From: a virus
IMG/VR virus record: IMGVR_UViG_3300034418_001298
Location: 1 to 27,669 of that record
Length of the DNA: 27,669 bases
Reading direction: 5' to 3' (one strand)
The translations under genes were made by a program, and so were the position numbers. Each line of letters starts with the position of its first letter. The stretch's first letter is position 1. Shown here piece after piece: positions 144 to 23,022 of this stretch. A model generated the notes under the pieces. The model had not been told where the DNA came from. It was given only the letters and a program-made list of their open reading frames with translations, and ran no database searches.

Positions 144-3100
144 TAGGTGATCTCCCGACCGTAGCCGATAGCAGTGTAGGTGAATTGTCTGCTGACAGCA
201 GTGCCGGCGCTGTTTCGGAACACCACGTCAAAGCCGGAGCGCGTGACGCTGCTGATGGCAAAGTAGTCGCCGGTAGCCATGTCAAAAGCGGTGATGCCCA
301 CGCTAGGTGCTTGGTAAAACTTTTCGGCAAACGTTGCCGTATATGTCCCAGTGCCGCTGGTGAGCGTGGCCGATGATGTCGTTCGTTGCTGTAGTTCCAC
401 CTCGCAACCGAGTTCGTCGATAACGATGTTTTGGTCGATGGCCGTGCTGGTAGCAATGGTTTTGAACTGAAATGCGCGGCCACGCGGAATGGCATTGCTG
501 AACTCACGCCAGCTGCCCCAAGTCGGCGATGCGTTGGGATCGTTGTCAGTGGCACGCACGTACAGCGCTGCGTTGACCTGATCAGCTGTTGGCCCATCAA
601 TATCAATCCAGGTGTCAATTAGATCAAAAAAATCATCCCAAAGTTGAGATGCAATGTATGGCCGTGTTACAAAATAACGACGGATATTAACATCAAATAT
701 GCCGCCAAGATCCAGTGTGCTGCCGAACTCGTATTCGCCTGTGCCAGCGTTGCTGCTTAATCCGTCAATCAATCCCAAGCCGTCCCAGTTGTTGTCTGTT
801 GCAAAGTCATCTATTGGATCCCCAGTTGCAAGGATAAGCCCGTCAAATTCCGAGCTATAGATCATATTGGTAAAATTGCCTGAGAACGGCGGAGTTTCCT
901 GATCCTCGCGGTAAGACTGAATCAGCAAACGTGGCTGTGGTGTTGGCAAATCGACAACGATAGCCGCAGCTGCAGCGCTACGCCTGCCGCCGTCATCTTC
1001 AAATTTGACAAGGTATGTACCTTCAAGTAACGGCACTTGCTTTTGCGTTTGTCCGCCTGATGCCGAAGACACAATATCTTGCGCTTGATCCCAAGCAGGA
1101 GTAACAATGTTAGTGCTGTGTCGGATAAGCACTTTGCCGCCTAGCAGCACATCAAGTTCAGTTGAACGATCCCAATTAAGGATGGCGCTTGCCTGGTCGA
1201 TGGCAATCAGATTGAGGTTAGCTGGCGTCGCCGGTAAAGCAGTCTTACCTACGGCTTGGAACGTTAATAAAGCTGGGCTTCTTGAAGGCTTGAGGCTTGC
1301 ATTTAACGAGTACACTTCGATATAATAAGTGCCGATTGTTGTATCAAAAATTTCAAAATCTGGGCGTGCTTGTGTATTTACGGTCCAGTTGCCATTTTGA
1401 GGGCGCCAGCGGATGCGATATTGATTGATGCCATTTACAGGTCGCCAGCTAACAAGAATTTTTGAAGCAGCGCGACCGTTGAGTTCGTATATCTCTTCTT
1501 TTGCGGAAAGGTTTGTAGGTGCAGCTGGGAGTCTGTTTAGATTTGTGATGTCACGATTTAGCAGCCTTTGATCTTGTTCAATGTATGCGTACTTGCTGGC
1601 ATTGTAAGAAAGCGCTGTAACCGCATATTTGCAGTCATCTTGTTCTTGAACGCCTAATACGCGCCAGGTTGATGTTTGAAGATCGTTGGTTTGATAAATC
1701 CAAATACTGTTGGAATTCGGCGCACTGCTAAACGCTGAAGATACGGTGATTACACCGCTGGAAATGCTGCTTACAGATTTGGTCTCCACGGTGCCGTCAG
1801 GGAGAATCACCGAGAGCAGGGGGTTGTTGAAAAGGGTCAAGCCTGTGGCGTCATCCACCGTGATGGCTGTTGTCGTGGCTGATTTGATGCGCCCACCACG
1901 GCGAGAGCCAGCACGTACCGGATCGCTAATTTCAATGACCTGGCCAGGACGGACAACAACGCCAGCGTCAATGGATGAAACAAAGGTGACTGTTTCGGAT
2001 TCTTCCCATTCGGAATAAAGCAACCATTCACCTAGCCGTTTAGCCTGACCGCGAGAGGTGCAGGCAAACGCGCTGACTTGCGTTGTCACAACGCCGTATT
2101 TTGCGATCAACGCTTGATTTTCGACTGCCTCATAGGCAATATCACGGGCCTCAAGATCCAGGTAAGACACCACTGCCACCGTGGGCCGGTTTTTCAGACT
2201 GCTGCTTTGATAGGTAAAGCCTTCCTCGGAAACGTTGGCAAGCGTGAACAGGTAGCTGCTGTCGGCTGGTTTGTCTTGGCTGACAGTCAACGCGCCAGTG
2301 CTCCAGTAGGGCATGACGCGGAACACGGAGCACAAATCGTTGATGAGCTTGTATGCCTCCTCAGCGGTTTGGATGTTGCAGTTCATTGAGAACCGTGGCT
2401 CAAAACCGCCGAAGCCATCGGGCACCAGTGCCGATGAATACTGGGATGCTGCATAGAACGCCCACTTGTCGAGCTGTGCGGCGGCAATGTGATCACCCAA
2501 TCCGTAACGCTTGGACGTGAGTAGATCCCACAAGCACCAAGCTGGATCGGTAGTCCAAACAGCAGCACCAAAGGTGCCATCCCACACGCCGTTGTAAATC
2601 AATCGACCAGTGGTGCTGTCAACAGTGGCATTACTCGGCACTTTAACTTTGATGCCACGAATGAGATAACTGCGCTGGGGAATGGAACTGAACTGCTCGG
2701 CGTCAATACGCAAATACACGAGTGCGCTGTTTGGGTAGCGCAATTTGGCATAAATAATTTCGGTGTAGCTAGTCCAATTAAATGCGTCGCTCAGCTTGGC
2801 CGATGCGCTGTCTGCTGTAACGCGAGTGACTTTAATATCAACAGGAAATGCGCCACTTAGATTTACCAAGTAATCACGCTGGTAAGCGTCTCCTGTGCGG
2901 CCACTGATGGTGTCATCAATGACCGTTGTGTAACCACCGCCATCGTATTGAACGGCAATCTGCAGTTGGATAGAAGAACCAACAATACTGCCGTCATCTT
3001 GAATTAACTGCAGTTGCGGCACCGTAATCGTGACACGCACTGCATCAACGTTGCTGTCTGTAATAGTGCGGATAATCGGTATGGCCTGTTCAACTGTTAC

Positions 3101-3409
3101 GCCAACGGGCTTTTCGTCTCGGATGTTAGACGTGCCAGGGATATGCGATTGGATTTGCGTACCCTTGCGCGTCAGGATAGTTACGTTTTTAAAGTTATAC
3201 GAACCATCAGGATTTTCCAGTGGTGTATTGTTGATAAAGATTGATTTGTTGCCATTTTTAAGGCCTTCGATTTCGCCTTCACTCAGCAAATCGAGAACCT
3301 GTGCGTATTGCGTTGAATTAAGATTGTCAGCTGCTTCTGTCGGGCTGCTGCCTGATCCGCCGCCGCCTTTGCCAGTGCCACCTGATGCGCCACGAATGAG
3401 GTCATCCAT
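143..3409 (-). CDS. Tail tip / host specificity protein, lambda gpJ family
   Basis: This 1088-residue protein is the central tail-tip protein, which forms the tail hub and its distal host-contact part. Residues 1-25 hold a Gly/Ser-rich linker (GTGKGGGGSGSS) followed by STQYAQVLDLLSEGEIEG, matching the gpJ start pattern in which a Gly-rich stretch precedes S-T-Q-...-D-..-SEG-.IEG. Two fibronectin-III-like domains lie at roughly residues 630-725 (from PAAPTNLSAKEE) and 728-820 (from LPATPANLNL). The last 80 residues (TYTATFAEKF.QAPSVGITA...VSSVTRSGFDVVF) look like a small beta-sandwich resembling H-type-lectin-like tips of other phage tail proteins; that assignment is tentative. Length is close to lambda gpJ (1132). 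It follows the I gene with a TGATG overlap and completes the H-M-L-K-I-J order. Confidence 0.93.
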   Translation of the reverse strand: MDDLIRGASGGTGKGGGGSGSSPTEAADNLNSTQYAQVLDLLSEGEIEGLKNGNKSIFINNTPLENPDGSYNFKNVTILTRKGTQIQSHIPGTSNIRDEKPVGVTVEQAIPIIRTITDSNVDAVRVTITVPQLQLIQDDGSIVGSSIQLQIAVQYDGGGYTTVIDDTISGRTGDAYQRDYLVNLSGAFPVDIKVTRVTADSASAKLSDAFNWTSYTEIIYAKLRYPNSALVYLRIDAEQFSSIPQRSYLIRGIKVKVPSNATVDSTTGRLIYNGVWDGTFGAAVWTTDPAWCLWDLLTSKRYGLGDHIAAAQLDKWAFYAASQYSSALVPDGFGGFEPRFSMNCNIQTAEEAYKLINDLCSVFRVMPYWSTGALTVSQDKPADSSYLFTLANVSEEGFTYQSSSLKNRPTVAVVSYLDLEARDIAYEAVENQALIAKYGVVTTQVSAFACTSRGQAKRLGEWLLYSEWEESETVTFVSSIDAGVVVRPGQVIEISDPVRAGSRRGGRIKSATTTAITVDDATGLTLFNNPLLSVILPDGTVETKSVSSISSGVITVSSAFSSAPNSNSIWIYQTNDLQTSTWRVLGVQEQDDCKYAVTALSYNASKYAYIEQDQRLLNRDITNLNRLPAAPTNLSAKEEIYELNGRAASKILVSWRPVNGINQYRIRWRPQNGNWTVNTQARPDFEIFDTTIGTYYIEVYSLNASLKPSRSPALLTFQAVGKTALPATPANLNLIAIDQASAILNWDRSTELDVLLGGKVLIRHSTNIVTPAWDQAQDIVSSASGGQTQKQVPLLEGTYLVKFEDDGGRRSAAAAAIVVDLPTPQPRLLIQSYREDQETPPFSGNFTNMIYSSEFDGLILATGDPIDDFATDNNWDGLGLIDGLSSNAGTGEYEFGSTLDLGGIFDVNIRRYFVTRPYIASQLWDDFFDLIDTWIDIDGPTADQVNAALYVRATDNDPNASPTWGSWREFSNAIPRGRAFQFKTIATSTAIDQNIVIDELGCEVELQQRTTSSATLTSGTGTYTATFAEKFYQAPSVGITAFDMATGDYFAISSVTRSGFDVVFRNSAGTAVSRQFTYTAIGYGREIT

Positions 3410-4020
3410 CAGCCGGTTACCTGCACAGTATCGATTTCGGCGCTGATCACGATAGAGCCGACCAGCGTTTCACCGTAGACTACCGGCACAGGTAGGCCTT
3501 GGCGGCTGGTTTGCTGGATGCCGCTAAATGAAAACGACTTGCGTGGGTCTTGATCAGCGTTGCTGATTCTTGGGACTGGCGTGAGTAATTGAGCAACGCC
3601 ACCAAGCACTAAAGCGCCGCCTATATACACACCGGCTTGTGTAGCAAATGCAATAGCTTGTAGCCCAAACCCGCTCAAATTTCCAGCTAAAGCAGCGCCA
3701 GCGGCAAGACTGGCAACACCGAAAGATAAAGCAATTAGCGCTACACCCAAAATAATTCTTCCAGCGGCGCTACCCGCACCCGCCATCACCGGCACAATCT
3801 TGATCGGTTGCTGTCCCGCTGGATTGTGCAGCTCATCCAACGTGATGTCGTCGCTGCCAACACTGACGCGATAGTGCTGATCCGCCATGTGCTTTTCGAG
3901 CTGCGGAAAGTTGGTCACAAGAAAACGGACGGCCTCGGCGGCGCTGGCTACGTCGGCCTTAAACACACGCCGCTTCAGGAATTTTGCAAGCTGTCCGTAG
4001 ACTTTGATCTCGCGCAGCAT
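3409..4020 (-). CDS. Tail assembly protein, lambda gpI family
   Basis: A 203-residue protein with a ubiquitin-like (beta-grasp) N-terminal part (about residues 1-75, starting MLREIKVYGQLAKFLKRR and ending KIVPVMAGAG). A strongly hydrophobic Ala/Gly-rich middle follows (residues 80-150, e.g. ILGVALIALSFGVASLAAGA), then a polar C-terminus with SFSGIQQTSRQGLPVPVVYG. The last motif is typical of gpI, which is needed for tail-tip assembly in lambda but is not found in the mature tail. It lies between K and J as in lambda. The start follows the K stop by 3 bases, with the Shine-Dalgarno sequence AGGTAAG containing the K stop codon. It ends in a 1-base overlap with J. The hydrophobic region might also interact with membrane during assembly, but I cannot show that. 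Confidence 0.9.
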   Translation of the reverse strand: MLREIKVYGQLAKFLKRRVFKADVASAAEAVRFLVTNFPQLEKHMADQHYRVSVGSDDITLDELHNPAGQQPIKIVPVMAGAGSAAGRIILGVALIALSFGVASLAAGAALAGNLSGFGLQAIAFATQAGVYIGGALVLGGVAQLLTPVPRISNADQDPRKSFSFSGIQQTSRQGLPVPVVYGETLVGSIVISAEIDTVQVTG

Positions 4021-4023
4021 GAC

Positions 4024-4740
4024 TTACCTCAGCTCCAACCCATCATGGCGCAAACGGCGCCCAACGCACTTTTGCAGCCAGCCGCCAAATAGGTCACGGC
4101 TGCTTAGTCGATACCGGACGTGGTGCAACACCATCTGATCGCCGACGTAAACGCCAATATGATTCAGGCCGATGCCTTGCATGTTCATCAGCAGTGCGTC
4201 CCCGATTTCCAGCGACTCGTCTTCGCCCAGTTCACGGAAACCAGCTTCGATCCAGCAGTCATCAAAAAATGGTGCAGCCTCAAATTCTTCTGGCGTCAAT
4301 GGACGCTTCCAGTCCGGCAGTCGAAGACCGTGCTCGCCATACCAATCACGAACCAGGGCCCAGCAGTCGGTAATACCCCAAGTCCACTCGCGGCCAATCA
4401 ACGGAGCCTTGAATCCTGATGGCTTGCACTCGCCCCATGTCTCCAGCTTGGGATTAACAATGTGCCATGGCAGGCCGCTGTGCTCACATGCAACGCGATC
4501 AGGCTGGCTCGGTTGCGGTGGTGTTGCAGGGTGACTATGAACCACGGCGACTACTTCGCCGGCATCTTCAGCAGCGGCCCAGTCGTCTGGGTTGAGGATG
4601 AACTGATCAGTGCCTTGCGAGAGATTGCGGCATGGCCAATAACGCTTGCGGCCTTTGATGATCACAACCAGTCCGCAGGCTTCACGCGGATCATCAGCCT
4701 TTGCGTGTTTCAACGCTGCTTGGCGCCATTTACTGATCAT
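4024..4740 (-). CDS. Tail tip assembly peptidase, lambda gpK family (JAMM/MPN + NlpC/P60 domains)
   Basis: A 238-residue two-domain protein. Residues 1-85 are a JAB/MPN metalloprotease-like domain: E20 in REACGLVV, H68 and H70 in HSHP, and S78 and D81 in SQPD form the complete JAMM metal site. Residues 115-238 are an NlpC/P60-type cysteine peptidase: C126 in [11 protein letters not shown] and H194 in NHIGVYVG supply the catalytic Cys and His. In lambda, gpK is part of tail-tip assembly, and the NlpC/P60 fold is that of cell-wall peptidases. All visible active-site residues are intact, so the protein may be catalytically active. It overlaps L by four bases (ATGA) and precedes I by three. Confidence 0.93.
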
Positions 4741-6089
4741 GTGTAATAGGTTCCAATGCCAGGGTAAGAGCCGAACGGCAGAGCATCGGTAGCTGGGTTA
4801 CGAAAAACGTAGCTCGGACTTCCAGAAAAATTATAGGTATCCGGCGTGTAACCAGACAGAGTGTAAAAACTAAAAGACTGAGCGGATACAGGGTTGGCAA
4901 CACTATATGACAAATTAACGTAATCTGTTCCGATAGAAGTTATTTTTACGGAATAATCCGTGGGCAATTCTGGTCCCATTACGGACATGCCAACAGTGAG
5001 GCCTGTTGTTGTCAAATTTATTATTCTGTTTGGAGGGGAAGGTATATTTGTTATTATTGAGCCGGTTTGCGTTGTAAATAACGTGTAGTTGCGAATTGCA
5101 GGTTGATTAAGCGTTATCGTGGACCCACTAATTGCGGCGATTGTTGTCCCATCTGCAAGGTTTGGTCCGCTAATCGCCATGCCTGGAGCAAGGCCGGTTG
5201 AGTTTACTAAAACCAGCTCAGTAGTGTTTGTTTGAATTGTTCCTGTCTTGGACGCATTGGTTGTGGCAGTGGCATTTGCACTCATTGTTACGGTCAAACC
5301 AGATATAGATGACACCGTTGTTCCGGCGGGGATGCCAAATCCAGACACTGCCTCGCCGGATCCGACTATTACTGATTGCGTCAAAACCAGTTGATTGCTG
5401 CCGGAGGTGACTGAGCCATTCACCGTAAAACTCTTGAATCGCGCTTGGCAGCTGCTCAGTCGCTTACCGCAAACATCATTGGCAGAACTTGTTACAGGGT
5501 TATCGTTAGCATCAAAATACGCAGTGCCAGCGTATCCGCACTCTGTAGATTTATATTGCCACTGGCAAATGTTGGCGATGCACTGCCGCTTTGGTGCCCT
5601 GATGCCAGCAAGATCAAATACGGCGGCCAGTTCATACTCAACGAAATCGCGTGTTTCGGCTGATTTGCGATCCACATAAAAGATTTCACGTGGAAACTCA
5701 GCTGTTGAATCTGCTGTTGGATTGCCGCTAGGGAAGTTGGCAGCATCGAGATATTTTGCCAGCGTCCTGATGCGCGTCATTTTTGCGCCTTCAAGGCCAT
5801 CCGGTAAACTCAGTATCAACGCTGTAATGGTGCCAAAAATGTTGGACACGCGGATTTTCGGACGCGGCAGTTGACCGTTGCCGCTGTATTCAAATCCTTC
5901 TGCTTCAACGGGAAACCGCAGATAAGTATCACCTGCCCAGACGACTTCGCCGTTGCTGTTTAGGTTGCTGCCTGCATGAAAACGGTACACATCATTTGTG
6001 CCATGCTGCGTAGTATTCAGCTCCAGTACAAACAGTTCGATGATTGAACTGGGTGCAATGGCTTGAAGATCTGAAACGGGAACGCTCAT
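4737..6089 (-). CDS. Minor tail protein, lambda gpL family, with an inserted beta-repeat region
   Basis: Residues 1-218 and 430-450 match gpL, a tail-tip protein that carries an iron-sulphur cluster in lambda. Cysteines C175, C184, C207 and C214 are spaced 9, 23 and 7 residues apart, which as I recall is the spacing of the four cluster ligands in lambda gpL. An extra C170 is present. The normal C-terminal motif (LPFGSYPG) appears only at residues 437-444. Between CQARF (214-218) and that motif lies about 210 residues of three Thr/Ser/Gly-rich beta repeats (roughly 219-280, 281-341, 342-410), each with a pattern like LVL..S..L..GM.ISG...G.TI..ISG.TITL. This makes the protein 450 residues against about 232 in lambda. 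The inserted DNA is AT-rich (94 G/C in 240 bases by hand count, 4861-5100). It overlaps M and K by ATGA. Confidence 0.9.
4800..5435 (-). repeat. Three degenerate beta repeats inserted in the gpL homologue
   Basis: This segment encodes residues about 219-430 of the gpL-like protein. Three consecutive units of about 60-65 residues share a pattern of G-(S/T)-(V/I)-x...LVL/INL...GLxxGMxxxGPxLxxGTTIxxISGxTITL. The copies have diverged at protein level and are not evident as DNA repeats. Base composition is clearly lower in G+C than the flanking gpL and gpK coding sequence. Confidence 0.7.
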
Positions 6090-14592: not shown

Positions 14593-16674
14593 TTAACCGT
14601 AGGTGTAAACAATAACTTTGCCGTCGCCGCCGTCGCCGCCTTTGCCGGACGTGGCGACGTTGCCGGAAGTGGTGGCCACGCGAGCGCCGCCTCCTCCACC
14701 GCCGCCAGCCCCAACGCCGCCGGCATTGCCGCCAGCGCCAGCCGTTGCACTGCCTGAGGATGTGGCGCAGTTACCGCCGCCGCCGCCACCTGATGCCTGG
14801 GTTCCAGCGGCATTGACAGAGCCGTCGCCACCATCGGTGGCGTTGCCGTTGGTTGTTGAGCTGGTGCCGGCCGTACCACCGGATAAAGCACCGGCATCAG
14901 CGCCTGCCGTGGCGTTTACGGCTGTCGCTGCAGCACCGACGCCACCACCTGCGCCGCCGCCGGATGACATGAACACCGTGGCAGTTGGAGCGGCGCCCGT
15001 TGTCGGGCTGTTGTCCGTGGCGGCACCGTTACCGCCATTGCCGCCAACCTCGATAGGAATGGTGTAACCAGCAATGACTTGAGCACCAATTCCGCCGCCA
15101 CCAACAGCGTTGTTAGCTGTGTTGACCGTGCCGCCCGCTCCGCCTTCGGCAGTCAGCCATGCTCCAAACTTGCTATCACCGCCAGCCACGCCAGGATCGC
15201 TAACGGTGCCGCCGTTGGAACCTGCTGCGGTAAAGGTTCTAGAAGCCCCGCCCGTGCCTTTGGCACCGACGGTGATGGTCTCCGTTGCGCCAAGGATGGA
15301 TGCCGGAAGTGTGCGTTGCACCACTGCGCCGGCAGCGCCGCCGCCAGCACCGCCATAGCCAACGTTGGCCGATGCACCGCCCGATGCACCACCGCCGCCG
15401 GCGCCAATAGCAATCACCAGCACCAGTTGTGCGCCGGATGGCTTAGTCCAGGTGTCAGTTCCGACGGTTGTATAGGTATTGGTGGCAAGTAGCGACATAC
15501 TGCCGGCTGCTGCCCAACTCAATGTGCCAGAGCCGTTGGTTGTTAGCTGCTGTCCGTCGGTGCCGTCCGTTGCCGGCAGGGTGTAGGTGGTGGAGCCAGC
15601 CGCTGCTGCAGGCGATAGGCCGACATAGCCAGATGTCGAGCCCGACAGGCGTACGGTGCCTTTTACGTCAAGGGTGGAACCGGGTGAGCTGGTTCCAATC
15701 CCCATCCTGCCCGAGCTGTCAATCCGCATCCGCTCAACTGGGCTGCTTGCTCCATCAGCGGTGGTGTAAAAGACCAGGCGACCTGGCATGTCATTAACGC
15801 CAGGGGTGCCATCTACTTGACCAATTATTGCTGCTGCGGTTGAGTTTCTATCTGTTCCATCTGCACCTTGAAAGGCGATTGCACCCAGCCAATCACCGCT
15901 AGCAACAATTGTTGTTGATCCTACTGCATTGCTTTTTGCATAGCCAAGGAATAAATATGCCGGTTCGTTGCTAGCATCATTACTAATGATTGCCAGGCTA
16001 GAGTTGTTATAGTCAGGACCTTCAATTTTTACTTTAGGTGTAATTCCCCAAAAAGTTTCTGCGCTATTTGTTGTCCCAATCCCCATCCTGCCCGAGCTGT
16101 CGATGCGGAGGCGTTCGGTGCCACCAGTGCTAGCTGCAAGCGTGTCGGCGGCGGGGCTCCAGAAGCCGGTGTTGGTATCTGTACCGGGATAAATCGAGGG
16201 CAGTGCGGCAGTGCCCAGCGGGAAACTGATCGTGCTGTCAAACGTCGCAGCACTGGTGACATCCAGCGTGCCTGGGATGTCGACGTTGCTCGTCCACTCC
16301 ACTCCAGTGCCAGCCGCATCGGTCTGGAGCAGTTGTCGGGCAGCACCATCTGCCAACTTGCTGACCGCGATCTCGGCACTGGCGCTGATGTCGCCATCGA
16401 CAATGGTGCCATCCGCGATCTTGGCGCTGGTGACTACGCCGCTGTCAATGGTCCAAGTTGAGCCACTGCCGCTGACGGTGATGTCGCCTTTATCACCATC
16501 AGAGACACCTCCGCCGCCGCCCGATAGCTCAACGATGCTGGCGGTGCCGTCGTCCTTCTTGGTGTAGAGCTTGCCGTCGTAGGTGTTGAGCGCCAGCTCA
16601 CCCAACTCCAGTTGGCCGGTGGTTGGCACTGCGCCTTGTACGGCGCTGCGTTTGATCTTGATGGTGTTTGCCAT
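14593..16674 (-). CDS. Fibre-like structural protein with glycine-rich C-terminal domain (693 aa)
   Basis: Residues 1-50 form a fibre N-terminal module (MANTIKIKRSAVQG, TTGQLELGELALNTYDGKLY) shared in pattern with the two neighbouring genes. The middle carries shaft-like repeats, including ERLRIDSSGRMGIGT near residue 190 and ERMRIDSSGRMGIGT near residue 318, encoded by an identical 26-bp DNA repeat. A TTYTLPATDGTDGQQL...LSW motif, common near fibre ends, lies around residue 365. From about residue 420 the protein is extremely Gly/Ala-rich (AIGAGGGGASGG, GGGGGGGARVATTSG), with low-complexity Gly runs to the end (VIVYTYG). Comparable Gly-rich domains occur at the receptor-contacting tips of several phage fibres. 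A strong AAAGGGGAG ribosome binding site precedes the ATG. It could be a tail fibre or a capsid-attached fibre; the location between head and tail genes leaves this open. Confidence 0.85.
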   Translation of the reverse strand: MANTIKIKRSAVQGAVPTTGQLELGELALNTYDGKLYTKKDDGTASIVELSGGGGGVSDGDKGDITVSGSGSTWTIDSGVVTSAKIADGTIVDGDISASAEIAVSKLADGAARQLLQTDAAGTGVEWTSNVDIPGTLDVTSAATFDSTISFPLGTAALPSIYPGTDTNTGFWSPAADTLAASTGGTERLRIDSSGRMGIGTTNSAETFWGITPKVKIEGPDYNNSSLAIISNDASNEPAYLFLGYAKSNAVGSTTIVASGDWLGAIAFQGADGTDRNSTAAAIIGQVDGTPGVNDMPGRLVFYTTADGASSPVERMRIDSSGRMGIGTSSPGSTLDVKGTVRLSGSTSGYVGLSPAAAAGSTTYTLPATDGTDGQQLTTNGSGTLSWAAAGSMSLLATNTYTTVGTDTWTKPSGAQLVLVIAIGAGGGGASGGASANVGYGGAGGGAAGAVVQRTLPASILGATETITVGAKGTGGASRTFTAAGSNGGTVSDPGVAGGDSKFGAWLTAEGGAGGTVNTANNAVGGGGIGAQVIAGYTIPIEVGGNGGNGAATDNSPTTGAAPTATVFMSSGGGAGGGVGAAATAVNATAGADAGALSGGTAGTSSTTNGNATDGGDGSVNAAGTQASGGGGGGNCATSSGSATAGAGGNAGGVGAGGGGGGGARVATTSGNVATSGKGGDGGDGKVIVYTYG
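15695..15720 (-). repeat. 26-bp direct repeat, copy 1, in the glycine-rich fibre gene
   Basis: Starts ccaatccccatcctg and ends ccgagctgtc. The identical 26 bases recur at 16076-16101. The minus strand encodes the fibre shaft motif DSSGRMGIG. Perfect DNA identity over 26 bases suggests recent duplication or ongoing recombination between shaft modules. Confidence 0.85.
16076..16101 (-). repeat. 26-bp direct repeat, copy 2, in the glycine-rich fibre gene
   Basis: Identical to 15695-15720, 381 bases away (a multiple of three, so in frame). It encodes the same DSSGRMGIG motif. Confidence 0.85.
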
Positions 16675-16710
16675 GTGGCTCCCCTTTGGTTGCTATGTAG
16701 CAGGGTTGAA

Positions 16711-16728
16711 GCCCCGTAGCGACGGGGC
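16711..16728 (-). other. Stem-loop between two fibre genes
   Basis: GCCCCGT and ACGGGGC form a seven-base G/C-rich stem around a four-base loop, in the 62-base gap between the stop at 16737 and the next start at 16674. On the minus strand it is followed by TTCAACCCTG, not by a T run, so it is a weak candidate for an intrinsic terminator. It may instead be an RNA-processing or stability hairpin. Confidence 0.5.
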
Positions 16729-16736
16729 GGGAACAG

Positions 16737-18179
16737 TTAGAAAGTGCCTCCGTCAATATCGAAACCGGAGGCGGTGCCATCCTCAAGGAATGTCACTAGG
16801 TCCGATAGTGCCACCTGCACCATCGTGCCGTTGTCGTTGATCACCATGCGGTCTGCTTGCGCCAGCGTGGTAGCAGTGGCAGTGGTGCTGCCATCAATTA
16901 CTGCAACTTCCGTAGAAGTAAGCAGCGCGAGCGCCGTGGCAGCACCTGTCTGCATCCCGGCCAAGGTGGCTAGGTCATCATCAAGGTCCAGCTCGGTGCT
17001 GGTAATGACAAGGCCGCGACCACTTCTAATGTCCAGCGAAAACTCGTTGCCGACGCTTAGGTCTAGGCCGTCGCCAGCGGTATAGGTGGTGTTGGTATCG
17101 GTGGCATTAATGGTGATGGCACCATTGCCATTGGTGATCGAAACATTGGTGCCAGCCGTCAGTGTTGCCTTAGTTAGCCCGCCAGCGGTGTTGCCGATCA
17201 GCAGTTGGCCGTCGGTGTAGGTGGTCTGGCCGGTGCCGCCATCACCTACGGCAAGAGTGCCGGTAATGCTAGAAGCGCCAAGATCCAATGCCAGCTCAGT
17301 GGTCTCGATAACCAAGCCGCCGTTGGCCTTGAGGTCAAGGCTGAACTCAGATCCAACCAGATCGAGGCCGTCACCTGCTGTGTAGCTGGTGCCGGTGCTG
17401 TTGATGGTGATCGAGCCGTTGCCGTTGGTGATCGACACTCCGGTGCCAGCGGTCAGCGTCGCCTTGGTCAGCCCACCGGCGGTGTTGCCAATCAGCAGTT
17501 GGCCGTCGGTGTAGGTGGTCTGGCCAGTGCCGCCGTAGCCGGTGCCAATCGTGGTGCCTTGCCAGGTGCCGGTGCCGATAGTGCCCACCGAGGTCAGGCT
17601 GGAGCCGGTAACGCCACTACCCAGCGTGGTGCTGCTCAGAACGCTGGAGCCGTTGATGTAGTACGCCTTGCCGGTGAGCAGGTTCAGGTGCTCGCTGGAG
17701 GTCCAGGCGTCGGTGGCGTCAACCCAGTTGAAGGTCTTGTCAGTGGTGCCCTTCAGCGTGATACCGCCGCCGTCGGCAGCAGCATCGGAGGGAGAGGCGG
17801 TGTCGGCCAAGACGATGTTCTTGTCGTCTGTGGTGACTGTGGTGCTGTTGATTGTGGTGGTCGTGCCGTTGACGGTGAAGTCGCCGGTAACAGTCAGGTT
17901 ATTGCTGAAAGTGGCGTTACCGCTAAGGGTGGCGCTGCCGAGTGCCAGCGTGCCCGTGATGGTTTTGGTGCCGCTGATGGTTTGGTTGCCGGTCAGACTG
18001 ACAAAAGCGCCATCGCCGGCAATCGCCGGAATGGTGGTGGCATCGCCGTTGCCGTCAGCACCCTTGCCGTAGTAGAGGATGTTGTCAACCTCATTGAAGG
18101 CCAACTCGGCGTTTTTCAGTCCAGCTGGGGCGCCAGTGGCGCCGCTGACGCGGCGCTTAATCCGCAGGGTGTTGGCCAT
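16737..18179 (-). CDS. Fibre-like structural protein with internal 98-residue duplication (480 aa)
   Basis: The N-terminus (MANTLRIKRRVSGATGAPAG, then LKNAELAFNEVDNILYYGKG) is the same type of fibre module as in the neighbours. Residues 60-130 are a beta-helical shaft-like region (TISGTKTITGTLALGSATLSG, LTVTGDFTVNGTTTTINST). Residues 214-311 and 312-408 are two copies of one unit beginning G(Y/D)GGTGQTTYTDGQLLIG, with YTAGDGLDL and EFSLD at matching places. The last part is ATAL/STEVAVIDGSTTATATT and the protein ends FDIDGGTF. Composition is Thr/Gly/Ser-rich and nearly free of Cys and His, typical of trimeric phage fibres. The C-terminal DGGTF resembles the DGGNF end of the upstream protein. 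AAGG lies about 10 bases before the ATG. Confidence 0.85.
   Translation of the reverse strand: MANTLRIKRRVSGATGAPAGLKNAELAFNEVDNILYYGKGADGNGDATTIPAIAGDGAFVSLTGNQTISGTKTITGTLALGSATLSGNATFSNNLTVTGDFTVNGTTTTINSTTVTTDDKNIVLADTASPSDAAADGGGITLKGTTDKTFNWVDATDAWTSSEHLNLLTGKAYYINGSSVLSSTTLGSGVTGSSLTSVGTIGTGTWQGTTIGTGYGGTGQTTYTDGQLLIGNTAGGLTKATLTAGTGVSITNGNGSITINSTGTSYTAGDGLDLVGSEFSLDLKANGGLVIETTELALDLGASSITGTLAVGDGGTGQTTYTDGQLLIGNTAGGLTKATLTAGTNVSITNGNGAITINATDTNTTYTAGDGLDLSVGNEFSLDIRSGRGLVITSTELDLDDDLATLAGMQTGAATALALLTSTEVAVIDGSTTATATTLAQADRMVINDNGTMVQVALSDLVTFLEDGTASGFDIDGGTF
16953..17540 (-). repeat. Tandem 294-bp duplication within the fibre gene
   Basis: Two adjacent 294-bp units, 17540-17247 and 17246-16953, encode residues 214-311 and 312-409. 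DNA conservation is highest at the start of each unit (for example cagcagttggccgtcggtg in both), and falls towards the end of the unit. Confidence 0.8.
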
Positions 18180-18231
18180 GAAGCTACAGCCTTAACAGTG
18201 TTTCGATTCTAGGGGGCTTACAGGATAAAGC

Positions 18232-19179
18232 CTAAAAATTTCCACCATCCGTCACTTCAAAGATTGTAGTGGATGGTCCACCAATCCATTTGTTAGCCGT
18301 TGAATCATAAATCAATAAACTTTGATTAACTTTTGCAGATACATCTACATCGGTAAGAGCCTGAAGAGATGTAGAAGCACCTGGCACAGATGAAGACTGC
18401 CACCTACCATTGGCAGAGTTATATGCTAAAACATTCCCATTAGAAGGATTTGCCGCTTCAACATCATGCAAATCTGAAAGCCTTGATCCCGTTGCCCATC
18501 TAACAAAAATAGAGCCATTATTTGCTGCATTGATTACAGCCGCAACCGCCAGCTTTAGATTTGGCGCTTCTGGCTCCGTCGTAGTGAATCCGCCCGCAAC
18601 GGCTGGATTACACCAAAGAATGTCACCATCTTGATACGCAGAAGTATTGATGCCACGAATCTTGCCAAAAACAGTGACATAGCCATCAGCGCCGCCCGCA
18701 ATAATCTGATCAGTTACGCCAAAAAACACATAACCGGGCAGCGAGCCATCGGCAACCATTGGGGCAACTTTTAAGCGACCGCTATTGCCAACCGAACCAG
18801 CAAAGCGGACAGCGGTGCCCTTGGGAATGGCAACCGAGTTGCTGTTATTTCGACACAAGAGCATTGTCTCTTGGCCGATGTAATTACTAATTCCACCAAG
18901 TTTTCCAAGCTCAAGTGTGCCCTCATCGGCATTCCAAGCCAGCTCACCAGGATTATCAACGTTGCCGCCACTGGTCAGCAATTGAATCGACTGAAGAATC
19001 GGGTCTTGATTCCATGGCGCATAGGTCAGCGCACTCCATGCACTGCTGCCATCGCCAACCTTGACTTGCTTTGTATCGCTTTCATATCCAACCTCACCAG
19101 CGGCTAAGACAGGATTAGCAGCGGTCCAGTTCGCTGCCGTATCACGGCGTAGCTTGATCCGCTGCCGAGTTGTTGCCAT
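18232..19179 (-). CDS. Fibre-like structural protein (315 aa)
   Basis: Residues 5-55 (RIKLRRDTAANWTAANPVLA, then GEVGYESDTKQVKVGDGSSAW) are a well-known phage fibre N-terminal module found in hyaluronidase-like and tropism-determinant-like fibre proteins, thought to mediate attachment or trimer start. The middle (about 105-230) contains VAIPKGTAVRFAGSVG, LPGYVFFGVTDQIIAGGADG and DGDILWCNPAVAGG, a beta-rich domain common in phage structural proteins. The end has two copies of a short unit (about 232-262 and 271-300): LSDLHDVEAANPSNGNVLAY and LQALTDVDVSAKVNQSLLIY. It terminates EVTDGGNF. The start overlaps the gpFII-like gene by one base (TGATG). DNA here looks more AT-rich than in the neighbouring fibre genes. 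Confidence 0.85.
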   Translation of the reverse strand: MATTRQRIKLRRDTAANWTAANPVLAAGEVGYESDTKQVKVGDGSSAWSALTYAPWNQDPILQSIQLLTSGGNVDNPGELAWNADEGTLELGKLGGISNYIGQETMLLCRNNSNSVAIPKGTAVRFAGSVGNSGRLKVAPMVADGSLPGYVFFGVTDQIIAGGADGYVTVFGKIRGINTSAYQDGDILWCNPAVAGGFTTTEPEAPNLKLAVAAVINAANNGSIFVRWATGSRLSDLHDVEAANPSNGNVLAYNSANGRWQSSSVPGASTSLQALTDVDVSAKVNQSLLIYDSTANKWIGGPSTTIFEVTDGGNF

Positions 19180-20340: not shown

Positions 20341-23022
20341 TCAGGTGCCATAGCAGAAGGCGCCGGGCTGCTTCACAGCCACGTCCAGATCCTGGTGGGC
20401 GATCACACGCACGGTGCCAGCAGTGGCACCAGCATAAGGATCAACCATCAGGTCCAGACCGGACCACATGCCCATCACCATCTGGCTGAAATCACCAAAC
20501 AGAGCATCGTTGCTGGCGAGCTGGTTGGAGACGATCACCGGATAACCGTTGACCTCATTGTTCTCCCACACAAACGAAGCCTCGGTGCCAGCCTTGCTGG
20601 TGGACTTCAGAAGGCCACGAGCAGTGGCATTCATGATGTACCGCAGCGAACCCACATCAGCGTTCGCAACAGCCACATCGGTCTCCATCGCAATCAGCTG
20701 GGTGAAAGTGCCAGCGTTGGTCAGGGTCTCGGTGCCGATGCCGGTGGTGTTGATCAGGCCCAGAGGCTGGTTGCTGGAGCCGGTGCCATAGATGGCAGCA
20801 CGGTCAACTTCCAGGGCGATCACACGAGCCAGGTCATTGCGGATCATGCCCTCAACGTCGATGCTCGACTGGAGCAGCAGACGACGGCTGTAGTCCACAA
20901 AAGCGGCAACAGTCTTGGGGGTCATGTTGACCTGATCAATCGCTTGCTGCGATTCGGTCGGAGCAACATTCTCACCAACCCAGTAAGCAGTAGCAGCGCT
21001 GCTCTGACGAGGGATCGAGATGTTGCCCTGCAGCCCGGTCAGCATGGTCACGCCAGCCTGCGCAATGGCCAGACGGTTGCGCAGCAGGTCGATGAACGAA
21101 CCAGCCAGCAGCTCATCAGCCACCAGGTTGCCGCCAGAGGCAGGGATGTCCACCACCAGATCACGACGCAGCACCTCGTTCGGCACCACGATGCCGTTAG
21201 AAGAGCGCTCGTACTTGGCAGCAGCAGCCTTGCCAACCTCAATCTCAAACTCAGCGGCACGGCGAGCGCCGGCATCGCTGGGGTTGGCGAGGTAGTTAAG
21301 GGCCTTCATGAAGCTGAAGCGCTTCACTTCCTTGTTGTCGAGACCCAGATCGTTCTGAGTCACATCTTGAGAGCGAATAGGTTGTTCCATGGGGGCTTGG
21401 CCGAGTTTGTCGAGGACAGCAGCACGCGCTTCATCGAGGGTGCGACCACCTTCGATCAACTCGCGGGCCAGATCTTGCAGCTGGTGCTTTTCGCCCAGTG
21501 CATTGATGGCGGCGATACGGCTCCGCTCGGCCTCAGCGGCCTTGGACCGGATCACCTCCACATCAGGGGTGTTGTTTTCCATTTGAACCTCAGGTTCGGG
21601 TGATGCGGCGGAAACCGCTTGACTGCGCACTTCCTCCTCAACGGATTCAGTGACTTCAGTTTCGATCTTAGTCTCCTCGGGTTGCATAGTTTCCTCGGGA
21701 ATCAGTGAACGTCCCACACCCACCGTAGGGTCAGCGGGAATAGAGACAACGCTGATTTCATAAGGAGACCAGCGCGTGGCGACCATTGCGCCGCCACGCT
21801 CTTCCATCTCATCAATCGAATAACCAAAGCTCACGCCACGCAGAATCCCGTCACGCACGTCATCAAGGATCTCCTGAGCAGCCTTGCTACGGCTGAAGCG
21901 CACCTTGGCATAGCCACGCTTCTTCTTCCCATCAACCCATGCACGCTCAACCACGCCCAATACGCGATCGGGATCATGGTTAAACAGGAGTGGAGCACCA
22001 TCATTTAACCGCTCAAGGATTGCTGCATCCATCTCATGGCTCAGCACCTCCTTGCCGAAATAACGCTCAACCGGATACTCCGAGCTGAATGGAAACTCCA
22101 TCACACGCTCTTCAACGGCGCGAAACTGCGTCGCTTCAGTGCGCTGATACTTGCCCTTGTAATCCCGTTTGTCGTCCATAGACCTCAATGCCTCAATTTT
22201 GGTCAACGTACTGAAGCGATGACCAACAAGGGTCTCCGTTTCCTGCCATTCATTATCGCTGTCTTGCCTATAGATACGAATCAATGCAGCCGGATCATCA
22301 GCTGTTGCATTGATGCTGAAGCTACTTTCCGGCACTCCCAGCACCCCTTCGCGCATCACATGCTCGATGCGGCCTCGCGCCGTACCACCAGAACTGTTCC
22401 ATGACACGAAATCACCCTCCTTGAGCGCGTCAGGCGCTGCACGCAACTCACGCTCGCCAGTCGCCTCCTCAAACTCAATCGGCTCGTAGTCACGATCACG
22501 CAACCACTGACGCGCTTCTGCAGCCGTGAACTGGCTCAAACGGAAACGGATCGCCTGCAGCTCAGCGCCTTCTTCTCCTTCCTTGATGCCAAAAATGAAG
22601 TCCACGCCTTCACCAGCCGCATTATTGCGACGACGAAAGCTGTCGTACTGCCCAGGATCACGCAATCGAGCAGCATGTTCATTCGGATAAGGGCGTTCCT
22701 CTTGCATGGTGCGATCCATCTTTGCGACAAGACTATCTGCCCAGGCTTTACCAGGGTCACCACCCCATGCAGCCCACGCCACCCTGCCAGGTGATGGATA
22801 CCCCTCCTCGCCAGGGCTGAAGCCCTGTCCCTGCTTATCCACCTCATGACGCGCAAACCATGCGCTCATCGTCACAATCGTCTCGTCACTCAGTTCTTCA
22901 CCGCTCAAAATCTGCCCGGCACGCCGTGCCGCAACCTCAGTGCCACCCTTGCGGCCTTCTTCCTTCCACGCTCGATAACGACGCGCCTCCTCGCGCATCC
23001 CTTGAGTTGGCATCGCGCTCAT
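20341..23022 (-). CDS. Fused prohead protease and HK97-type major capsid protein with extra N-terminal domains (893 aa)
   Basis: Five parts are visible. Residues 1-105: a helical domain (TQGMREEARRYRAWKEEGRK, SAWFARHEVDKQGQGFSPGE, YPSPGRVAWAAWGGDPGKAW). Residues 110-185: RPYPNEHAARLRDPGQYDSF with DFIFGIKEG and ARQWLRDRDYEPIEFEEA. Residues 198-278: a tudor/SH3-like barrel (LKEGDFVSWNSSGGTARGRI, ETLVGHRFSTLTKI). Residues 285-440: HK97-type serine protease with H349 in LLFNHD and S398 in GVSFGY. Residues 490-893: capsid protein, beginning with a helical delta-like segment (EAERSRIAAINALGEKHQ) and ending in the HK97 fold (TAYWVGENVAPTESQQAID, AIYGTGSSNQPLGLIN, VIAHQDLDVAVKQPGAFCYG). No stop interrupts the frame. 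Internal ATGs at residues 446 and 481 have good Shine-Dalgarno sequences and could yield capsid protein alone. It overlaps the portal gene by ATGA. Confidence 0.92.
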   Translation of the reverse strand: MSAMPTQGMREEARRYRAWKEEGRKGGTEVAARRAGQILSGEELSDETIVTMSAWFARHEVDKQGQGFSPGEEGYPSPGRVAWAAWGGDPGKAWADSLVAKMDRTMQEERPYPNEHAARLRDPGQYDSFRRRNNAAGEGVDFIFGIKEGEEGAELQAIRFRLSQFTAAEARQWLRDRDYEPIEFEEATGERELRAAPDALKEGDFVSWNSSGGTARGRIEHVMREGVLGVPESSFSINATADDPAALIRIYRQDSDNEWQETETLVGHRFSTLTKIEALRSMDDKRDYKGKYQRTEATQFRAVEERVMEFPFSSEYPVERYFGKEVLSHEMDAAILERLNDGAPLLFNHDPDRVLGVVERAWVDGKKKRGYAKVRFSRSKAAQEILDDVRDGILRGVSFGYSIDEMEERGGAMVATRWSPYEISVVSIPADPTVGVGRSLIPEETMQPEETKIETEVTESVEEEVRSQAVSAASPEPEVQMENNTPDVEVIRSKAAEAERSRIAAINALGEKHQLQDLARELIEGGRTLDEARAAVLDKLGQAPMEQPIRSQDVTQNDLGLDNKEVKRFSFMKALNYLANPSDAGARRAAEFEIEVGKAAAAKYERSSNGIVVPNEVLRRDLVVDIPASGGNLVADELLAGSFIDLLRNRLAIAQAGVTMLTGLQGNISIPRQSSAATAYWVGENVAPTESQQAIDQVNMTPKTVAAFVDYSRRLLLQSSIDVEGMIRNDLARVIALEVDRAAIYGTGSSNQPLGLINTTGIGTETLTNAGTFTQLIAMETDVAVANADVGSLRYIMNATARGLLKSTSKAGTEASFVWENNEVNGYPVIVSNQLASNDALFGDFSQMVMGMWSGLDLMVDPYAGATAGTVRVIAHQDLDVAVKQPGAFCYGT
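21580..21593 (-). promoter_or_regulatory. Candidate internal ribosome binding site and start for free capsid protein
   Basis: On the minus strand the sequence is CTGAGGTTCAAATGG. TGAGG is five bases from ATG at 21582-21580, which is codon 481 of the fusion. Initiation here would give a 413-residue protein starting MENNTPDVEVIRSKAAEAER, the usual size and start of an HK97-type capsid precursor. A second candidate, GAGGAAACTATG with ATG at 21687, would start at codon 446. Use of either site is inferred from spacing and position only. Confidence 0.5.

Follow-up and report, generated by a model that had tools for sequence, protein, structure and literature searches.

An internal start codon conserved at the protease-capsid junction of fused phage head genes points to two products from one frame

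The 27.7 kb virus record analyzed here (the window) contains an intact open reading frame (ORF) of 893 codons at 20341-23022, encoding a product of 98 kDa. It lies on the minus strand, as do all of the window's features below unless indicated otherwise. The genes met in the window are ordered terminase, connector, lambda-type portal and fusion, as they are in annotated relatives, and the portal stop overlaps the start of the fusion gene in an ATGA (23019-23022). A start that overlaps or abuts the stop of the upstream ORF is found in 68 of the 101 loci in which this could be judged. According to Pfam, PHROGs and AlphaFold, the full-length protein is composed of N-terminal domains, an S78 prohead protease, a linker, a delta/scaffold segment and an HK97-fold capsid protein. 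The protease spans residues 304-434 (21721-22113; Pfam, PHROGs), and the Pfam profiles Peptidase_S78 and Phage_capsid match residues 331-434 and 630-892, respectively. An earlier sequence-only reading had described a protease-capsid fusion in a single 893-codon frame, with which both the ORF and the Pfam domains agree; the catalytic residues that it named, H349 (21976-21978) and S398 (21829-21831), are correctly positioned and invariant in an alignment of 48 sequences. The protease is followed by a disordered, hypervariable linker (residues 437-485; 21568-21714; pLDDT below 50, indels of up to about 30 amino acids), the delta/scaffold segment (residues 481-629; 21136-21582; first helix at residues 488-512 in AlphaFold) and the mature capsid region (residues 630-893; 20344-21135; 27.9 kDa; Pfam and 8gta match). 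The boundary between the last two is taken from the mature major capsid protein of phage R4C (8gta).

The family closest to the fusion is PHROG 617, which groups head proteins fused in this way (E = 1.2e-164 across residues 302-893). The window's gene shares with the PHROG 617 fusions an S78 protease and an HK97-fold capsid in a single open frame, as well as the catalytic His and Ser. It is a member of these fused protease-capsid genes, homologous across protease, delta and capsid to those of S-CBS1, S-CBS3, S-LBS1, R4C, RcRhea, VP882 and phiHAP-1. In the PHROG 617 records examined, a single major capsid protein is annotated, without an internal start. The protein scores 191 bits with NF045541, under the curated cut-off of 525, and 22.6 bits with NF045540 (cut-off 475), its protease being of the S78 rather than the ClpP-like type, which places it outside both of these families. 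The closest isolates are the Synechococcus phages S-CBS1 and S-CBS3, followed by roseophages; a cyanobacterial host is therefore likely. The extra N-terminal domains of the window's clade (22276-23013) comprise a PHROG 2859-like helical domain (residues 4-104; 22711-23013; PHROGs, AlphaFold), a small alpha/beta domain and a Tudor-like domain (Hva1_TUDOR in Pfam, residues 203-249; 22276-22416). They occur in the fusions of cyanophages and roseophages and are missing from many other, shorter PHROG 617 members. On the plus strand, a 402-amino-acid ORF (20395-21603) covers almost exactly the delta-capsid segment, whose strong codon bias is probably what gives rise to it. Antisense ORFs are also annotated within the corresponding fused gene in the VP882 record. 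Elsewhere in the window, three ORFs in a row (14593-19179) have similar N-termini (MATTRQRIKLRRDT, MANTLRIKRR and MANTIKIKRS) and apparently encode paralogous structural proteins of the tail or fibre type.

Three in-frame ATGs within the fusion gene, each with an upstream GAGG, had been proposed from the sequence alone as additional starts, namely codons 282 (22177-22179), 446 (21685-21687) and 481 (21580-21582). All three ATGs and their motifs are where they had been reported. Since GAGG-type motifs ahead of an in-frame ATG or GTG are frequent by chance in this gene, such motifs prove nothing by themselves; the feature that stands above chance is the conservation of the start at codon 481. 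The proposal is strongly supported for this codon, on grounds of conservation, Shine-Dalgarno (SD) complementarity, codon usage, mRNA folding and a split homologue, while conservation speaks against the other two. The close relatives consist of 80 IMG/VR loci (54 sequences after dereplication), all with one open frame throughout the part covered. A Met is found at the codon-481 position in 80 out of 80, though the linker around it is hypervariable, with blocks of around 30 residues present or absent, and it is retained even where an indel parts it from the next conserved residues. After dereplication it is likewise universal (53 of the 54 as aligned; in the remaining one, L011, it is off by one codon). 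Synonymous divergence, scaled to expectation, falls from about 1.25 ahead of codon 440 to 0.35 at codons 481-500, the lowest value in the gene, and is about 0.8 in the capsid part. In the window, an SD-like GAGGT lies 4 nt ahead of the ATG (21587-21591).

Scanning viral and bacterial collections by alignment yielded 268 fused loci, or 143 after dereplication. An in-frame ATG is present in the linker of all 143, which is slightly above the 134 expected from codon-shuffled linkers, and the weight of the evidence for a start at the junction is carried by SD enrichment rather than by the presence of the ATG. An SD of at least 4 nt precedes the ATG in 113 of the 143 genes against an expectation of 39.5 ± 4.6 in the same shuffles, one of at least 5 nt in 56 (11 expected) and one of at least 6 nt in 22 (2.7 expected). 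The enrichment persists among sequences below 50% identity (n = 35), where the ATG and SDs of at least 4, 5 and 6 nt are counted in 35, 30, 20 and 13 genes, compared to 32.7, 9.6, 2.7 and 0.6 in the shuffled expectation. As an internal control, SDs of at least 5 nt are found ahead of 28% of the linker ATGs, but only of 1.6% of GTG, 3.7% of ATC and 5.9% of CTG codons. In-frame ATGs with an SD of at least 5 nt peak at the junction (57 genes), a peak that is missing in the other frames and whose sharpness is partly built in, as in linkers holding several ATGs the one with the strongest SD was chosen to represent the junction. This choice does not affect the shuffle test or the codon control. The SDs encode varied peptides, with 55 distinct 4-mers among 56 genes. 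All eighteen annotated phages have a Met in the linker ahead of delta, and an SD is usual in the non-cyanophage ones; examples of the junction SD and ATG are R4C (cggaggacgcaATG), VP882 (agaggtgcagaaATG), CRP-821 (caaaggagtgatcccATG) and CRP-811 (taaggagaacactATG). Homologues devoid of the GAGG-ATG pair had been named as an argument against internal initiation. The ATG half of the pair turns out to be universal; the SD half is found in most homologues of the proteobacterial type and is missing in most of those from cyanophages.

The same position is marked by codon usage and mRNA folding. In the window's close clade, codon choice shifts from protease-like to capsid-like, with the best change point at codon 493 and a nearly equal score at 481. 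This step at codons 481-493 outlines a putative nested delta-capsid gene (20341-21582) of 413 amino acids and 44.2 kDa. Family-wide, the delta segment, which was excluded from the training of the comparison, is capsid-like in 117 of 140 genes, against only 29 of 140 for the adjacent upstream linker. Across 40-nt windows, the mean folding energy is about -9.5 kcal/mol but weakens to -4.6 at the junction ATG, a dip that closes within about 40 nt on either side; codon-shuffled linkers in which the ATG was kept give -7.2 kcal/mol. These signals are those expected of a real start codon ahead of a more heavily translated sequence. In the AlphaFold prediction, run on the 48-sequence alignment, the protease is folded up to about residue 430, residues 437-485 are disordered, the delta helix begins at 488 and the HK97 fold follows. 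M481 thus lies in the disordered linker, seven residues ahead of the first delta helix. The best PDB match is 8gta, the R4C capsid, in which the chain starts at residue 362 of a 629-residue ORF. Because this residue aligns to residue 630 of the window's protein, the mature shell would begin at or shortly before that position. The junction Met of R4C is residue 189, giving a delta of 173 residues. A start at M481 would therefore yield an intact 44 kDa delta-capsid protein and, after maturation, a shell protein of approximately 28 kDa.

The SD ahead of the junction ATG is missing in most cyanophage members, and the GAGGT of the window is confined to its close clade. Cyanophage relatives instead conserve a hairpin-like GCGG...CCGCA motif (in the window GCGGTTTCCGCCGCA, 21604-21618, 21 nt upstream of the internal ATG), found 15-33 nt upstream of the ATG in loci such as L016, L082, L087 and L124. 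Its Ala codon choice is conserved and it is mostly exclusive with an SD: counted over loci that were not dereplicated, 80 have the motif without an SD, 64 an SD without the motif, 15 both and 22 neither. Around 20 nt downstream of ATG 481, a nearly invariant GGAGGTGATCCGGTCC (21544-21559) in the window's clade is complementary to the 3' end of the 16S rRNA. It forms part of the gene's most stable consensus RNA fold and includes CGG, an otherwise rare Arg codon in the capsid part. Most base pairs of the upstream hairpin and the downstream element are invariant in the close clade, and no Rfam family matches the junction above its gathering score. One possibility is that they act in initiation without an SD, as stabilising or standby elements. 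The downstream GGAGGTGATCC was also considered as the SD of a further start and rejected, as no start codon lies at a usable distance.

A homologue with a separate capsid gene had been suggested as a way of telling codon 446 from codon 481. Such a case is L287, a Bacillota MAG in which protease and capsid are separate genes with a stop/start overlap of ATGA (cacaggagaaatcgaATGA, in the region 1960-2050); its capsid ATG, preceded by an AGGAG SD, is situated at the codon-481 junction. Two other candidates, the 'split' capsid annotation of CRP-823 and L307, were discarded since their frames break elsewhere than at the junction. In CRP-823 (2480-5408), two 'major capsid proteins' are annotated because the frame is broken ahead of the protease, possibly through a sequencing error. 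Beyond PHROG 617, every readable junction among the loci retrieved with the NF045541 model contains an ATG, nearly always with an SD; the capsid of most of these loci is unmatched by the profile used and two are of the PHROG 617 type. In the ClpP-type fusions (NF045540), the junction ATG is present in three out of three. Like the window's gene, the NF045541 (S78) and NF045540 (ClpP-type, Gifsy-2-like) fusions carry an ATG right after the protease, in most cases with an SD, but their capsid belongs to another family and, in NF045540, the protease has another fold as well. Given the split, NF045541 and NF045540 cases, a start at the junction seems to be a general solution, the latter two samples being small and without a shuffle control, and nearly all phages with protease-capsid fusions seem to share it.

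A gene that produced only the fusion would make protease and capsid in a 1:1 ratio, which two starts in one frame would resolve. What the evidence backs in such an arrangement is the single open frame, the order of the domains, the conservation of the internal start and the codon adaptation from that start onward; the conserved start is documented by sequence evolution, not at the protein level. Very probably, the frame gives rise to two products, an abundant short delta-capsid protein and a minority long protease carrier. The long form (residues 1-893; 98 kDa) would start at 23022, overlapping the portal stop, and would be the only one to carry the extra N-terminal domains. The short form (residues 481-893; 44 kDa), starting at ATG 21582, would consist of delta and capsid only and, as we infer for the relative amounts, would be the abundant procapsid subunit. 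The minority long form would presumably co-assemble with it through its own delta and capsid part, thereby bringing the protease inside the prohead. There, the protease would remove delta at or shortly before residue 630, along with the tethered protease and linker, in an order of cleavage that we can only presume, leaving the mature 28 kDa shell protein.

If, alternatively, translation yielded the full-length protein only, an active S78 protease could cut the disordered linker to free delta-capsid, and the junction Met would either have a structural role or be the fossil of an ancestral capsid gene that stood apart. The single open frame of all fused loci suits this explanation, and the R4C structure, which shows the mature shell protein only, is predicted by it and by two starts alike. 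A fossil Met would, however, decay in a hypervariable linker, whereas the ATG is found without exception; the SDs encode differing peptides and occur specifically ahead of ATG, and a shift in codon usage and synonymous constraint at the ATG is not predicted by one translation unit. We consider a polyprotein of this kind quite improbable. An internal promoter within the protease region, giving a second, shorter mRNA from which the capsid is translated at the same ATG, would likewise account for the step in codon usage and for the conserved elements near the ATG. No sigma-70-like promoter was found inside the gene at 21480-22100, though phage and cyanobacterial promoters may differ, and an internal promoter is unlikely, if somewhat less so than the polyprotein. 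As it still requires an internal start codon, it would modify rather than replace the two-start model.

The two remaining ATGs fare worse. Codon 446, as the start or as one of two, has its GAGG five bases upstream and is kept in the closest clade, and in L011 a GGAGG precedes it at a spacing of 5. Met446 is nevertheless found in only 6 of the 54 dereplicated relatives, the linker segment around it is deleted in most, and codons 441-480 are strongly non-capsid-like in usage, so that we reject it as a very improbable start. A protease-only product from codon 282, the least credible of all, has a GAGG three bases upstream, a poor spacing, and Met282 occurs in 11 of the 54 relatives, on which ground it was rejected; moreover, its product could not end as a protease alone, since no stop follows the protease.

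Head protease genes with a nested in-frame start are known from lambda (gpC/Nu3) and Mu (gpI/gpZ), where this internal start gives an abundant, protease-less C-terminal product. That product is a scaffold, the capsid having a gene of its own, whereas the nested product of the window would comprise delta and the whole capsid. The likeness to lambda C/Nu3 that had been drawn from the sequence thus extends to an in-frame internal start conserved beyond chance, but not to a nested ORF limited to scaffold: the window's gene works like lambda C/Nu3 without being a member, as its nested ORF includes the capsid. The head module of HK97 and D3 shares with the window's gene the S78 protease, the layout of delta and capsid and the HK97 fold; in HK97, however, protease and capsid are two separate genes instead of a single frame with a nested start. 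By analogy only, retroviral Gag/Gag-Pol also relies on a minority extended form to carry a protease into the assembling shell. Gag-Pol is made by frameshifting or readthrough, on the C-terminal side, and has no homology to the fusion. HK97 prohead I contains 415 capsid subunits and about 60 proteases (PMC12749128). In the fused gene of EpicDab, an ATG ahead of the protease represents a different situation (PMC9671378). No internal start in protease-capsid fusions was found reported in the open-access literature, and neither N-terminal sequencing nor ribosome profiling nor virion proteomics turned up for any member; subscription papers on Gifsy-2, phiHAP-1, VP882 and the S-CBS phages may carry relevant protein data. 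Judged against the open-access literature, what appears to be new is a complete capsid gene nested in a protease-capsid fusion and conserved across fusion families. A broader view, which we rate slightly below an even chance and put forward tentatively, is that internal initiation at the protease-scaffold junction is general and possibly convergent (S78/PHROG 617, S78/NF045541 and ClpP/NF045540), that it creates a Gag/Gag-Pol-like pair whose long form, started where the portal gene ends, is the built-in protease carrier, and that the conserved hairpin or downstream element of cyanophages has taken the place of the SD and drives initiation without it.

Protease-capsid fusions are widespread, the 268 fused loci stemming from phages of cyanobacteria and several proteobacterial groups. 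Should each of them make two proteins, their gene models, the mass-spectrometry searches of their virions and the models of their assembly would have to be revised. The elements at the cyanophage junction are candidates for an SD-independent internal initiation element. If true, the two-start arrangement would offer a compact, testable system for the packaging of a maturation protease, and it would explain how a fused gene supplies few proteases alongside about 415 capsid subunits.
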